Shown here in pieces: positions 34,205-53,441 of a stretch of DNA of 64,000 bases. The stretch lies in assembly GCF_000003815.2 (NCBI RefSeq), contig NC_049981.1, positions 16,422,063-16,486,062 on the forward strand, given 5' to 3'. The notes beneath the pieces were generated by a model that made no database searches, was not told the origin of the DNA, and worked only from the letters and a program-made list of their open reading frames with translations. This DNA comes from Branchiostoma floridae (taxonomy: Eukaryota; Chordata; Leptocardii; Amphioxiformes; Branchiostomatidae). Position 1 is the first letter of the stretch; the number at the start of each line of letters is the position of its first letter. A program made the position numbers and the translations under genes.

Positions 34205-34294
34205 CACATCCTCAAGCCTTTAACGTGGACCCGACACCAGGCCGTCCGTTACTGCTGTCAAAGCTGCTAGACCCCACAAAGAGCAGTAGGAGAG
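34205..34294 (+). CDS. Receptor A exon: N-terminal linker
   Basis: It follows a gtcgcag acceptor and ends at G|gtaagg. It encodes [19 protein letters not shown] and [10 protein letters not shown]. The matching exon of gene B (53355-53441) encodes a related peptide ([19 protein letters not shown]) at the same phase, which is the main evidence that this is a real exon. It does not resemble the end of an iGluR amino-terminal domain. An in-frame ATG at 34108 offers an alternative start but lacks a signal peptide. Confidence 0.75.
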
Positions 34295-37200
34295 GTAAGG
34301 GTAAAGTCGCCTAGTATGTTGTTGATCAAAAGAGCCCTCTACTGACTCAAAACGACCCTTTCATTGCGATAGATTTAGATATAGTTGCAATTTGAAACAG
34401 AGTAGACTAGAATTAGATATGGCTGTCTTGGGACTAAATGTCGCTTTACGACATTTTCTTACGCAAAGGCCGTTTACTAGTAATATGACCTTTTTCTCCA
34501 TCCAGGAGAGGGTATTTCGCTGAGAGGTAAACGACTACGGGCTGTAACCATCTTGGTGAGTAAAAAACAAACGTTACGTAATGACCTAATTACCTCCATG
34601 AAATGTCATGGAATGGAGGTTATATTTTCTGTTATGTGTCTCTGTCTGTGTAGATGATTACTCAAGAACGGCTGGATGGATTGGTTTCATACTTGTTGTG
34701 TTGGTGAGGTGTGATAAAAGCTCGAATCGATGAGATTTTGGGAGCCGTATCTGTCGTTATAATCGATGTAATAATATCAGAAATCACCCCTATATTTGAG
34801 ATATATTGGTACAGGCATCGTGCTTTATGTGTTTGTTAATGGGCTTAGCTCCAAGCAGATGGTGAGGTGACAGCTGTTTGGGGAACTCCGATTTTTTTTA
34901 ATATGATAATTAGTTTTATTTATGTCTGCTTAGCATCTTACAGTTGGTGTAGGGCTGTCAGAGGAAAGTGTGCATCTCGTTTTTGTACCGTGTGAACAGC
35001 TGATGTTATGACATATTGGTGGAAAATCAAATCACCATCTGACTTAAGTTGGCCACATCCCTTCTTCTTTCTGAGTTTCCCAACTTCCTCCCACCACACA
35101 GCTCTGAGGCACATAGTCGAACCTCAATAATGCTGACAACCTTAGACAGTTTAAATGCCAAACATCAAGCTTAAGGAACACCACGCTACCATATGCCGTC
35201 GACCTCTTAAACGCACATTAAACAATTAAGTGTCACATTTTAATAATTACTAATCAGATGGACATCCTCTGTGTCATTAAATAAATACACCACTACTTTC
35301 CCATAACATTTATAACCATTACTCTCAAATACAACCGACTATAAACATACATACCATCCACAAAAAAAGCAATAAATATTTCATGGAGGTATGAGGTCCC
35401 CGAACTCTAGTTATAGTTGTTTTTTAAATGAAACCGAATAACTCTTATAACTAATCTTTATCAAAACAACAAAATCATTTGATGTACGTAGCGACAGATA
35501 TCAGTAACGAGGTTATCATTCTTACTTTAGATGATGCCATTCCTAGTATGAAGCCGCTTCTATCATAGAACTTCACTGACTCCCCTGAGGAATTATGTTT
35601 ATTATCTATATGTACTTGAATCGCAGCAAGCATGCTCTGAATTAATTCATTTGTTTAATGAACATTTAAATAAAACATTTCATCTTGCATGATATGATTA
35701 TCATTTCTTATATTCTTTAAATGGTCTGTTAATCTCCTAGGAGGCTCCTTACATGATGAAGAAAGAAAATGACAAAGGAGAGCACGAGTTTTCCGGATTT
35801 GTGAAGGACATTGTGGATAAGTTATCAGAGAATATGCGGTTTGATTATGAGATGTACGTGGTACGGGACGGAACATACGGGACCCTCACAGAGAACGGCA
35901 CATGGACCGGGCTTATTGGCGAGGTCATCGAAGGGGTAGGTACAGGACATAAGTACGAATAGGTTGGTTTCTAAGACGCTCTCTTTAATGTATTATTCTT
36001 CTCAACATAAGGTAGCTCTACAATGACCATTCGTTCTTTAGAGTGGCATTATGATGTAGTCTGAGCTCCTGGCCTGTAAATCATTCTCGTTCCTCAATCC
36101 TAAAATGCGTCTATGTTATAGTATATATTTGATAATGAGAGCATACGCCTAAGTTTTCGCCCGCTATGCGCCAGTTTCTACAGTAACAGTGACAGTATGT
36201 ATTATCTCTCGAGCCTTCTACAGAACCTAGTGAAAGAGTAAGCTATCATGTCTTTCTGTCGATATTGTAGATCACTTTTGTCACTTATGATAATTTTACA
36301 CTTTCTCTCTAAGCATATGAATAAGGTATTGCAAATTTCAATTCAGGGGACATTTTTGATGTTTCAATCATCATATCCCCGCAATACCCTTTGTTAACAA
36401 AGAAATGTACAATTATATGGTCATACAAACGGATACAAGTAATCTTTAATTATGTGTGTTCATGATCAGTGTGAAACTTATGTGTAACTTTGTTTACCTG
36501 CCTTTTAGCGTGCCGACGTCGCCTTCGCCCCTGTCACTATCAGCTCAGAACGGGAACAGGTCGTTGACTTCACCAATCCTTTTATGGACCTGGGGGCGGG
36601 GCTTCTGTTGAAGAAACCGGTCACAGAGGGAACTAATGTCTTCGCATTTCTGGAGCCATTCCGAAGCACAGTCTGGTTTTCTATTTTGGGCGCCATCTTT
36701 GGTGTTGCCATATTGCTGTATGTCACAAGCAAACTTAGGTAATGAATAGGATTTGCTATAGTTGCTATTGTCATGTTTTTGAAAGTTAAAAACACTGTTG
36801 CTGACTTACTTCCTTTTTACAGGATAGGTGATCAAATACAATGCATGTGGATATGGATTACATAAAACAAGAAATGCTGAAGCTATAGGAACTGTTGAAA
36901 CGTTGACACAACCATAGAGCCATTGCCAGAAGTTTTTGCAACTCCGCTACTTGCTGCATGGTGTCGCTTTGACAAGGTTGCAGTCTTACGCATGACTGAG
37001 TCCATACCCCTTAGTCTCTGTTCGTTACTGAAAGGTTGGACAGGTAAATGCCTAGCCTCTACCAGGCTCCGCGGATCGCTGGTAAAATAATAGAAATTGG
37101 ACAAATTCTAATAGAGTCAATAGTGCGCTAGGGGATTCGGTCGGCCAGAGGAGTCATGGTGCCCCGTGCGTCGCCTTGACTCACATCCCCATGACTTCTT

Positions 37201-53100: not shown

Positions 53101-53441
53101 ATATGTGTTCTAGGCAAAGATAAAGACATAAACTGGTATATGGATACCCGCTGAGATAGACAATCTGTAGAGCAATGATCCATGCCAAACAGAATAAATA
53201 GTTGGGGTTTCTAAAATGTACAATTAGTACAAATGATTACTTTGGATTTGTGCCAATATGTACCTTGGGTCTTTTCTAATAAAAGTTTTCAAGGTTTCCT
53301 TCAAGCTTCATCATATTTCTGTGTTACTTAGGGATGGGAATTAGCATAACATACCTTGTTCAGATGATTCGGTAGTAGCAAGAAGTTTGGCGATCAATAA
53401 TGGGGTTGGCTTCCTTGTGACGTCATGCGAAAACAATGGCG
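44043..53441 (-). CDS. Receptor gene B: ionotropic glutamate receptor subunit (nine recognised exons)
   Basis: Paralog of receptor A, facing it tail to tail. Minus-strand exons in order: 53441-53355, 52856-52810, 49627-49436, 49153-48924, 47928-47831, 46104-45877, 45356-45089, 44747-44519 and 44135-44043. All junctions are GT/AG and keep frame over about 489 residues. Order: linker, S1 ([30 protein letters not shown] with the carboxylate Arg), M1 ([20 protein letters not shown]), pore loop (YWSIVRKG), M3 ([10 protein letters not shown]), S2 ([15 protein letters not shown] [37 protein letters not shown]), M4 and tail. Start and signal peptide are not found; they may lie in the 57441 gap or beyond the window. 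It shares the Arg-Lys pore and the Phe-Leu substitution in S2 with gene A. Co-assembly with A is plausible but unproven. Confidence 0.93.
44519..44747 (-). CDS. Receptor B exon: end of S2 and M4
   Basis: 229 nt. It encodes [26 protein letters not shown] and M4 ([20 protein letters not shown]), then KLCKSKPQ before gtaatg. Without splicing, the frame would end 13 codons later. Confidence 0.95.
45089..45356 (-). CDS. Receptor B exon: S2
   Basis: 268 nt after actgatag, ending GG|gtaaga. It encodes [13 protein letters not shown], a longer variable loop ([16 protein letters not shown]), [32 protein letters not shown] and LKKPLSVG. The five extra codons relative to gene A lie in the variable loop. 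Confidence 0.95.
45611..45690. repeat. Perfect 40-bp tandem duplication
   Basis: The unit beginning TCACTAAGTTTGGTCGTCCT occurs twice head to tail, with no mismatch except the last base. It lies in a gene B intron between 45356 and 45877. The lack of divergence shows it is recent. Confidence 0.95.
45877..46104 (-). CDS. Receptor B exon: M3 gate helix and start of S2
   Basis: 228 nt after ctcacag, with donor gtaggg after GTA G. It encodes [51 protein letters not shown], then [18 protein letters not shown]. The M3 part is nearly identical in DNA to gene A; the remainder is diverged. Confidence 0.96.
47251..47374. repeat. Foldback element, about 124 bp, in a receptor B intron
   Basis: The left arm CATAAAAGTAGTATCAAG... 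GGCCAAGGAGTG pairs with the right arm CACTCCTTGGCAGGCTAC... CTTTGATACTATTTTATG. The loop is about 17 nt and there are a few bulges. It fits a small hairpin MITE. Confidence 0.75.
47831..47928 (-). CDS. Receptor B exon: pore loop with Arg-Lys at the Q/R site
   Basis: 98 nt after ttttctag, ending G|gtgggt. It encodes [18 protein letters not shown], then [12 protein letters not shown]. The Q/R position is Arg (AGA) and the next Lys (AAA), as in gene A. Confidence 0.95.
47969..48060. repeat. AGGTCC/GGACCT-rich palindromic cluster
   Basis: It starts GGGTACCGGTAC, then has repeated CAGGTCC units in both orientations (TTCAGGTCCAGGTCCGG, GGTCCAGAGGACC, TCGGACCTGAATCTGGACC). The self-complementary arrangement suggests a transposon terminus or foldback. 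A short (GTATCT)n run follows at 48155-48177. Confidence 0.5.
48924..49153 (-). CDS. Receptor B exon: end of S1 and M1
   Basis: 230 nt after tcatgcag, ending AG|gtagga. It encodes [39 protein letters not shown] and M1 ([20 protein letters not shown]). Confidence 0.96.
49436..49627 (-). CDS. Receptor B exon: S1 core
   Basis: 192 nt after ccatag, ending before gtacgt, phase 0 at both ends. It encodes [53 protein letters not shown] and [10 protein letters not shown]. Confidence 0.95.
49628..52809. other. Receptor B intron
   Basis: The long intron between the second and third recognised exons. A GC-rich patch near 51480-51600 has short frames on both strands but no recognised protein. The CA-rich satellite at 52183-52373 is listed separately. 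Confidence 0.6.
52183..52373. repeat. Complex (CA)n satellite with higher-order units
   Basis: Mostly CA dinucleotides with interspersed CATACACGCACATGTACACA blocks repeated at least twice. The overlapping Cys-Val and His-Thr frames are artefacts. Confidence 0.95.
52810..52856 (-). CDS. Receptor B exon: start of ligand-binding S1
   Basis: 47 nt between tgtttcag and gttagt (minus strand). It encodes [15 protein letters not shown], leading into EEPYVM. It matches gene A exon 34506-34555 in phase and position, one codon shorter. Confidence 0.88.
53355..53441 (-). CDS. Receptor B exon: N-terminal linker
   Basis: 87 nt after aattcag, ending G|gtatgt. It encodes [18 protein letters not shown] and [10 protein letters not shown], with the same entry and exit phases as the gene A exon 34205-34294 and a similar core (PLLxxKLL). 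The preceding exon must end in phase 1 and was not found. Confidence 0.75.

Follow-up and report, generated by a model that had tools for sequence, protein, structure and literature searches.

The window analysed here, a stretch of 64,000 nucleotides from Branchiostoma floridae (C3:16422063-16486062), contains two ionotropic glutamate receptor (iGluR) genes arranged tail to tail, gene 1 on the plus strand (34205-39880) and gene 2 on the minus strand (53441-44043), each with nine known coding exons (Table 1). Every acceptor in these models has AG and, in each gene, 8/8 donors have GT, and codon phases are identical at matching exons, in keeping with the initial annotation of this DNA, which had described nine exons per gene that correspond one to one in phase and nearly in length. 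The nine-exon products comprise 485 (gene 1) and 489 (gene 2) residues and match the Pfam domains Lig_chan-Glu_bd (126 and 125 bits, respectively) and Lig_chan (125 and 123 bits); a ligand-binding domain (LBD; segments S1 and S2) and a channel with M1–M4 are thus present in both, which places them among the iGluRs. ANF_receptor, the amino-terminal domain (ATD), was not detected by Pfam in either nine-exon product, and the LBD is preceded by a linker of about 45 residues, as the initial annotation had also noted. Among solved structures, gene 1 is matched best by 7ysv ("Glutamate receptor") and then by kainate 1 and kainate 2 (E=3.9e-94 to 7.6e-93), and gene 2 by GluD1 (E=9.8e-90); for both genes these structure matches begin at the start of the LBD and extend through M4. 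In the exons other than M3, the two genes differ at 86 of 120 four-fold sites that they share but keep an amino-acid identity of 44–78%, which indicates that the reading frames are under purifying selection and not decayed.

Table 1. Coding exons of the two receptor genes, in transcript order (window positions unless stated otherwise).
Feature	Position	Strand	Basis
Gene 1 signal-peptide exon (MDVGVTVFFLATMIWTAGVLCNMTTIQ)	13847..13928	+	predicted; phase-1 end, donor GTAAGT
Gene 1 linker exon, 90 bp	34205..34294	+	exon model
Gene 1 linker end and first LBD strand, 50 bp	34506..34555	+	exon model
Gene 1 LBD S1, 195 bp	35741..35935	+	exon model, Pfam
Gene 1 S1 end and M1, Arg485 equivalent, 230 bp	36509..36738	+	exon model, alignment
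Gene 1 M2 pore loop, Arg-Lys at Q/R site, 98 bp	37247..37344	+	exon model
Gene 1 M3 TYTANLTAF and S2 start, 228 bp	37797..38024	+	exon model
Gene 1 S2, Glu704-Glu705 equivalents, 253 bp	38737..38989	+	exon model, alignment
Gene 1 S2 end and M4, 229 bp	39272..39500	+	exon model
Gene 1 C-terminal tail through stop, 87 bp	39794..39880	+	exon model
Gene 2 signal-peptide exon (MRILDLLVLLPCLLMAELSFNLTTHP)	C3:16488522-16488444 (L040 2460-2382), outside window	-	predicted
Gene 2 linker exon, 87 bp	53355..53441	-	exon model
Gene 2 linker end and first LBD strand, 47 bp	52810..52856	-	exon model
Gene 2 LBD S1, 192 bp	49436..49627	-	exon model, Pfam
Gene 2 S1 end and M1, 230 bp	48924..49153	-	exon model
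Gene 2 M2 pore loop, Arg-Lys at Q/R site, 98 bp	47831..47928	-	exon model
Gene 2 M3 TYTANLTAF, 228 bp; four-fold sites almost the same as in gene 1	45877..46104	-	exon model
Gene 2 S2, 268 bp	45089..45356	-	exon model
Gene 2 S2 end and M4, 229 bp	44519..44747	-	exon model
Gene 2 C-terminal tail through stop, 93 bp	44043..44135	-	exon model

Each gene has one further predicted upstream coding exon, encoding a signal peptide alone, that was overlooked in the initial annotation. The first known exon of both genes begins in phase 1 and therefore needs one base from an exon further upstream. Candidates were sought in the upstream DNA among exons that start with ATG, have a signal-peptide-like core and a good donor, and end in phase 1, using score cuts that varied between runs. 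The candidate for gene 2, MRILDLLVLLPCLLMAELSFNLTTHP, scores 15.6 and is the better of two phase-1 candidates in 19.5 kb of upstream DNA; that for gene 1, MDVGVTVFFLATMIWTAGVLCNMTTIQ, scores 12.2 and is second of the ten candidates listed. Genes 1 and 2 belong to a four-gene cluster with the order g0 (+, 16.38-16.41 Mb), gene 1 (+), gene 2 (-) and g3 (-, 16.584-16.556 Mb), and the outer paralogs have candidates of the same kind, MWRFDVIILAICSLAMMALGNMTTTT in g0 (score 16.5, top of 13 candidates in 15.0 kb upstream) and MATAGVCSLIVCVLLVCGSVGVSLNTSTTA in g3 (score 17.5, best among the eight candidates listed in 25.7 kb upstream). All four exons end in phase 1 and contain an N-x-[ST] sequon whose Asn lies six residues ahead of the splice, first noticed in genes 1 and 2 and found afterwards in g0 and g3. 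A signal-like exon with the strict form of this sequon, N-x-T-[ST], occurs in 0/300 random 20-kb stretches and at three places in a total of 300,874 scanned bases, counting both strands, these three being the g0, gene 1 and gene 2 sites; the g3 sequon does not satisfy the strict form. The signal exon joins the linker exon in phase, as computed for genes 1 and 2 and judged by eye for g0 and g3, and the completed models of 513 (gene 1) and 516 (gene 2) residues agree with the compact receptor of about 510 residues that had been proposed on the assumption of such a join. The two completed proteins are identical at 330 of 506 aligned residues, far above chance. A linker exon (PLLLAKLI) and a further exon are also found in g0, and g3 has an exon ending LLKGKTLKAVTVL.

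The initial annotation had made its compact receptor depend on the lack of ATD-encoding exons upstream of 34205 and 53441, and none were detected there in scans of genomic DNA. Pfam scans with a threshold of E<=1 and stops translated as X gave no ATD in the three plus frames of window positions 1-34205 or in the three minus frames of 53442-64000 and the next 8.9 kb (L040), and returned one chance-level match (YqgB, E=0.075); in a control with two frames over the gene 1 exons, one frame was positive at 100.2 and 78.2 bits. Eight ATD exons of the B. floridae genome were used to train a hidden Markov model (HMM), which was then tried on four held-out ATD exons. It gave 37.7 and 30.0 bits to the two of AMPA/kainate/delta (AKD) type, and 12.0 and 4.2 bits to the two of more distant loci, so that it should pick up an AKD-type ATD fairly well but one of a distant type poorly. 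Applied to 142 kb including the four signal-linker introns, it scored no higher than 5.9 bits on the own strand inside such an intron (at window 23461-23670) and reached 8.0 bits in the DNA preceding the signal exon of gene 2. Nor did whole-genome searches (513 Mb in 431 contigs) with PF01094 and with one native ATD exon yield a sense-strand match at genes 1 and 2. The native exon found 14 places, ten of them at E<=0.03 including the query itself; the other four are two weaker matches near iGluR loci (C219 and C2:17.33 Mb), one on C6 and one antisense in the window.

A PF00060 profile search of the genome gave 87 matches that were merged into 67 Lig_chan loci, 26 of which have a same-strand PF01094 match in the 60 kb upstream, a lower bound since the locus at C3:17.52 Mb gained an ATD through the native query. 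The motifs TYTANL(T/S)A in M3 and, ahead of it, G(G/V)EP.PR are common to 15 loci, which we refer to as the family: the four cluster genes, four loci on C2, one on C3 at 11.59 Mb, one on C11, three on C14, one on C15 and one on C188. A PF01094 match within 60 kb was found for 0/15 family loci and for 9/12 loci outside the family that match gene 1 at >=44% over the M3 stretch (Fisher p=4.7e-5, a value weakened by the post hoc cut that selected the 12 comparison loci and by the non-independence of related loci). The three comparison loci lacking a match are C7:22.545 and two at C14:2.77-2.78. As a separate observation, the 41 of 67 Lig_chan loci in the genome that lack a PF01094 match include those at C15 6.4-6.6 Mb, which have long open frames, and the C9 and C15 4.5 Mb clusters; a different query revealed an ATD for at least one of them (C3:17.52 Mb).

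These results have to be weighed against the possibility that an ATD does exist, encoded by exons that are too divergent to be recognised or that lie partly in an assembly gap, in which case the signal-exon candidates would be chance matches or belong to other isoforms. Several points weigh in this direction and against the compact models. PF01094 missed at least one real ATD (C3:17506831) and shows none for the three AKD-like loci mentioned above, the native HMM gave two distant held-out ATD exons the low scores already quoted, and one exon could lie concealed in the 695-bp gap (57441-58135) that interrupts the gene 2 first intron. The signal exons and the long first introns that they imply (20.3 kb in gene 1, 12.9 kb in gene 2) are predictions from sequence; the score of the gene 2 exon is equalled in 13/300 random stretches, and the gene 1 exon fell under the first, stricter score cut and is outscored by a phase-0 candidate (13.8) that would not join the linker. 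The g0 exon emerged after the upstream stretch was extended from 6.0 to 15.0 kb, and the g3 exon after extension from 6.7 through 15.7 to 25.7 kb, and no exon with the sequon ending was found in scans of about 10 kb at the family loci C3_11.59 and C2_24.42. There is also a weak ATD-like open stretch at 46660-46929 (+), which scores 13.8 bits where the best of 40 random windows scores 12.4. It was set aside as an ATD exon, being antisense within an intron of gene 2 and without the W...YDD end in its aligned part, and is possibly a relic or a chance match. Against a hidden ATD stand the in-phase signal-linker joins and the short exon ending common to the four paralogs; furthermore, upstream open reading frames (ORFs) of gene 2 have only chance-level matches in the DNA upstream of gene 1, the linker exon being among them (E=0.047). 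The signal-exon assignment rests on this agreement between paralogs, the score of the gene 2 exon not being decisive by itself. On balance, a concealed ATD appears improbable.

In a tree with AMPA, kainate and delta references, the 13 of 15 family loci that are long enough form one clade (98/98). The fork on which a placement in the AMPA/kainate/delta/phi (AKDF) group depends has values of 60/76 in this tree, from which epsilon and NMDA references are absent. The kainate reference GluK pairs with locus C9_3.580 (99/96), outside the family, which argues against assignment to the kainate class. Four loci were excluded by name because their matches were short or poor, a 12-residue M2 match of C2_13.60 was removed as spurious, and six loci, two of them family members, fell under the length cut (C9_3.563, C17_9.88, C1_11.29, C3_17.52, C14_5.501 and C2_10.85).

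The initial annotation had explained the pair by inverted duplication of an intron-rich gene, an origin that the tail-to-tail order and the one-to-one exons would suit. Matching exons are found in the other cluster genes too, and the pair is half of the cluster, with strands +,+,-,-. The four cluster genes form a clade (99/98) in which gene 2 groups with g0 (95/91), g3 joins them (95/84) and gene 1 is deepest. Since gene 2 groups with g0 and gene 1 lies outside, one inverted duplication is probably not the origin of the pair; constraining genes 1 and 2 to group together costs 12.67 log units (approximately unbiased test, p-AU 0.0314), a weak rejection. The four-fold differences outside the M3 exon further indicate that the gene 1/gene 2 split is old, and we regard a simple inverted duplicate pair as very unlikely. 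The exons conflict in their grouping, with M1 favouring g0 and gene 2 and S2 favouring g0 and gene 1, and because of this disagreement the history of the cluster is probably reticulate.

The M3 exon departs from the pattern of the other exons. Between gene 1 (37797-38024 +) and gene 2 (45877-46104 -), 5/37 of its four-fold sites differ, and across all ten pairs of the five C3 copies the count is 3-8 of 29-40, compared with 44-70% between C3 copies and copies on other chromosomes. Exon-limited gene conversion of M3 among the chromosome-3 copies, reaching a copy about 5 Mb away, is the likeliest explanation of these site patterns. M3 exons are often richer in third-position G+C, which may contribute to the similarity.

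With respect to the ligand, the equivalents of Arg485 and Glu705 are retained in both genes according to the structure alignments, as are the Pro and Thr near Arg485. In gapless alignments, positions 653, 654 and 655 are Thr, Phe and Leu in both genes. Among the 13 family M3 exons that reach these positions, 655 is Leu in 12 and Thr in C2_13.60, and 654 is Phe in nine. In glutamate receptors, position 655 is Thr. According to the portions of PMC6307864 considered here, a non-polar residue at 655 points to glycine-like ligands, but the combination of Thr653 and Phe654 fits no group listed in them. Elsewhere in the family, residues 653-655 read Gly-Ser-Leu at C14 5.466 and 5.490 Mb and Gly-Ser-Thr at C2 13.60 Mb. 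Ligand preference may differ within the family.

In the pore, both genes have Arg at the Q/R site and Lys directly after it. Two basic residues occupy Q/R and Q/R+1 at 11/11 family loci with a usable M2 match (four of the 15 lack such a match), in the order Lys-Arg at C15_7.18. The initial annotation had described the M3 and S2 motifs as classical; both segments are recognisably those of an iGluR, and M3 reads TYTANLTAF, a variant of SYTANLAAF. In edited AMPA and kainate receptors, which have Arg at the Q/R site, Ca2+ permeability and polyamine block are gone and conductance is lowered; the edited subunits still conduct, weakly.

Taken together, we consider it quite likely that genes 1 and 2 encode compact, ATD-less subunits on the AMPA/kainate/delta/phi side of the iGluRs, with an amino-acid ligand other than glutamate and a basic pore pair that would limit Ca2+ entry and conductance. 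The predicted chain would run from the signal peptide through a linker of about 50 residues with the sequon, S1, M1, the M2 loop, M3, S2 and M4 to a tail of about 30 residues. With no ATD, assembly of the tetramer would have to rest on LBD and membrane contacts alone; AMPA receptors without an N-terminal domain are on record in the literature sampled here. The LBD would close as a clamshell on an alpha-amino acid, which could dock owing to the retained equivalents of Arg485 and Glu705, and which is probably not glutamate because of the Thr/Phe/Leu at 653-655. As elsewhere among the iGluRs, closure would then open the M3 gate. With Arg-Lys at the Q/R site, the pore would be Ca2+-impermeable and poorly conducting, or the subunit would act as a modifier in heteromers.

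It is possible, if doubtful, that the subunits bind ligand without conducting on their own, in the manner of vertebrate kainate-binding proteins, with the double positive charge blocking the pore, and that they function as modulators. The family-wide basic pair is in agreement with this, as is the layout, which resembles that of the kainate-binding proteins, chordate ATD-less iGluRs of the kainate class with about 450-500 residues. In contrast, a gated channel would be expected to keep its LBD, M3 gate and M4 intact and conserved, as is the case here, and edited subunits with Arg at this site conduct to some extent. The kainate-binding proteins were compared by description, and differ in class in so far as GluK falls outside the family in the tree.

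With regard to the described iGluR groups, genes 1 and 2 are perhaps Phi-like. Phi has been reported from cephalochordates, hemichordates and echinoderms (eLife 2018, PMC6307864), and later from some protostomes, together with an uncharacterised group II of AKDF receptors that includes cephalochordates (Commun Biol 2025, PMC12226733), as stated in the parts of these papers considered. Gln586 is missing from every Phi subunit, and the SYTANLAAF motif is less conserved in some of them (same portions of PMC6307864); genes 1 and 2 likewise lack Gln at 586, having Arg in both. Phi and group II were compared by description only, and fall on the AKDF side, where genes 1 and 2 probably also belong. 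Unlike genes 1 and 2, neither is described with ATD loss or a basic Q/R pair in the text considered from PMC6307864 and PMC12226733, and the portion of PMC10861852 covered does not mention ATD loss in Phi or group II. The kainate and delta iGluRs, the nearest solved matches from the LBD start through M4, differ from genes 1 and 2 in three respects: the two genes have no detected ATD, Arg-Lys in place of Gln-Gln at the Q/R site, and Thr/Phe/Leu at 653-655.

The initial annotation had likened the layout to that of insect ionotropic receptors (IRs). Most protostome IRs lack an ATD and have a short N-terminus before S1, of about 200 residues in most (PMC2924276, in part), and ATD-less receptors are thus already known in the iGluR superfamily. 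The likeness holds for the layout, in that genes 1 and 2, with their predicted signal exons, also have a short ATD-less N-terminus; it is one of description. The IRs differ in being a protostome group, and genes 1 and 2 keep the Arg485 and Glu705 equivalents. A more far-reaching proposal would be that a chordate lineage independently evolved an IR-like ATD-less family of at least 15 loci with a basic pore pair, weakly conducting or even anion-permeable, and a ligand that is a small amino acid but not glutamate, with a role in inhibition or chemosensing; in this extended form we hold it to be unlikely. ATD loss is otherwise familiar from the vertebrate kainate-binding proteins and a rotifer receptor. 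Among the titles and abstract openings covered, there was no mention of ATD-less lancelet iGluRs; the supplement of PMC6307864 may mention the ATD.

As for other features of the locus, the C-tails of genes 1, 2 and g3 end in LRR(Q/T)(T/S)T(D/E)(V/L)NL(H/F) (39794-39880 +, 44043-44135 - and L041 -, respectively), which we take to resemble a basophilic kinase site motif. Short inverted-repeat elements similar to miniature inverted-repeat transposable elements occur in gene 1 introns at 38135-38390 (by eye), 20511-20750 and 23521-23761. Pfam gave no match above the curated cut-off in ten long ORFs of the window and one weak match, to RIX1 (E=0.048), and a search with Rfam gave no match.

If the preferred reading of genes 1 and 2 as compact ATD-less subunits is true, a deuterostome iGluR family has lost the ATD as a group. 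Such a family would offer a natural test of what the ATD is necessary for and of how two rings of positive charge at the Q/R site affect permeation, and it would extend the receptor set of a basal chordate by uncharacterised members.

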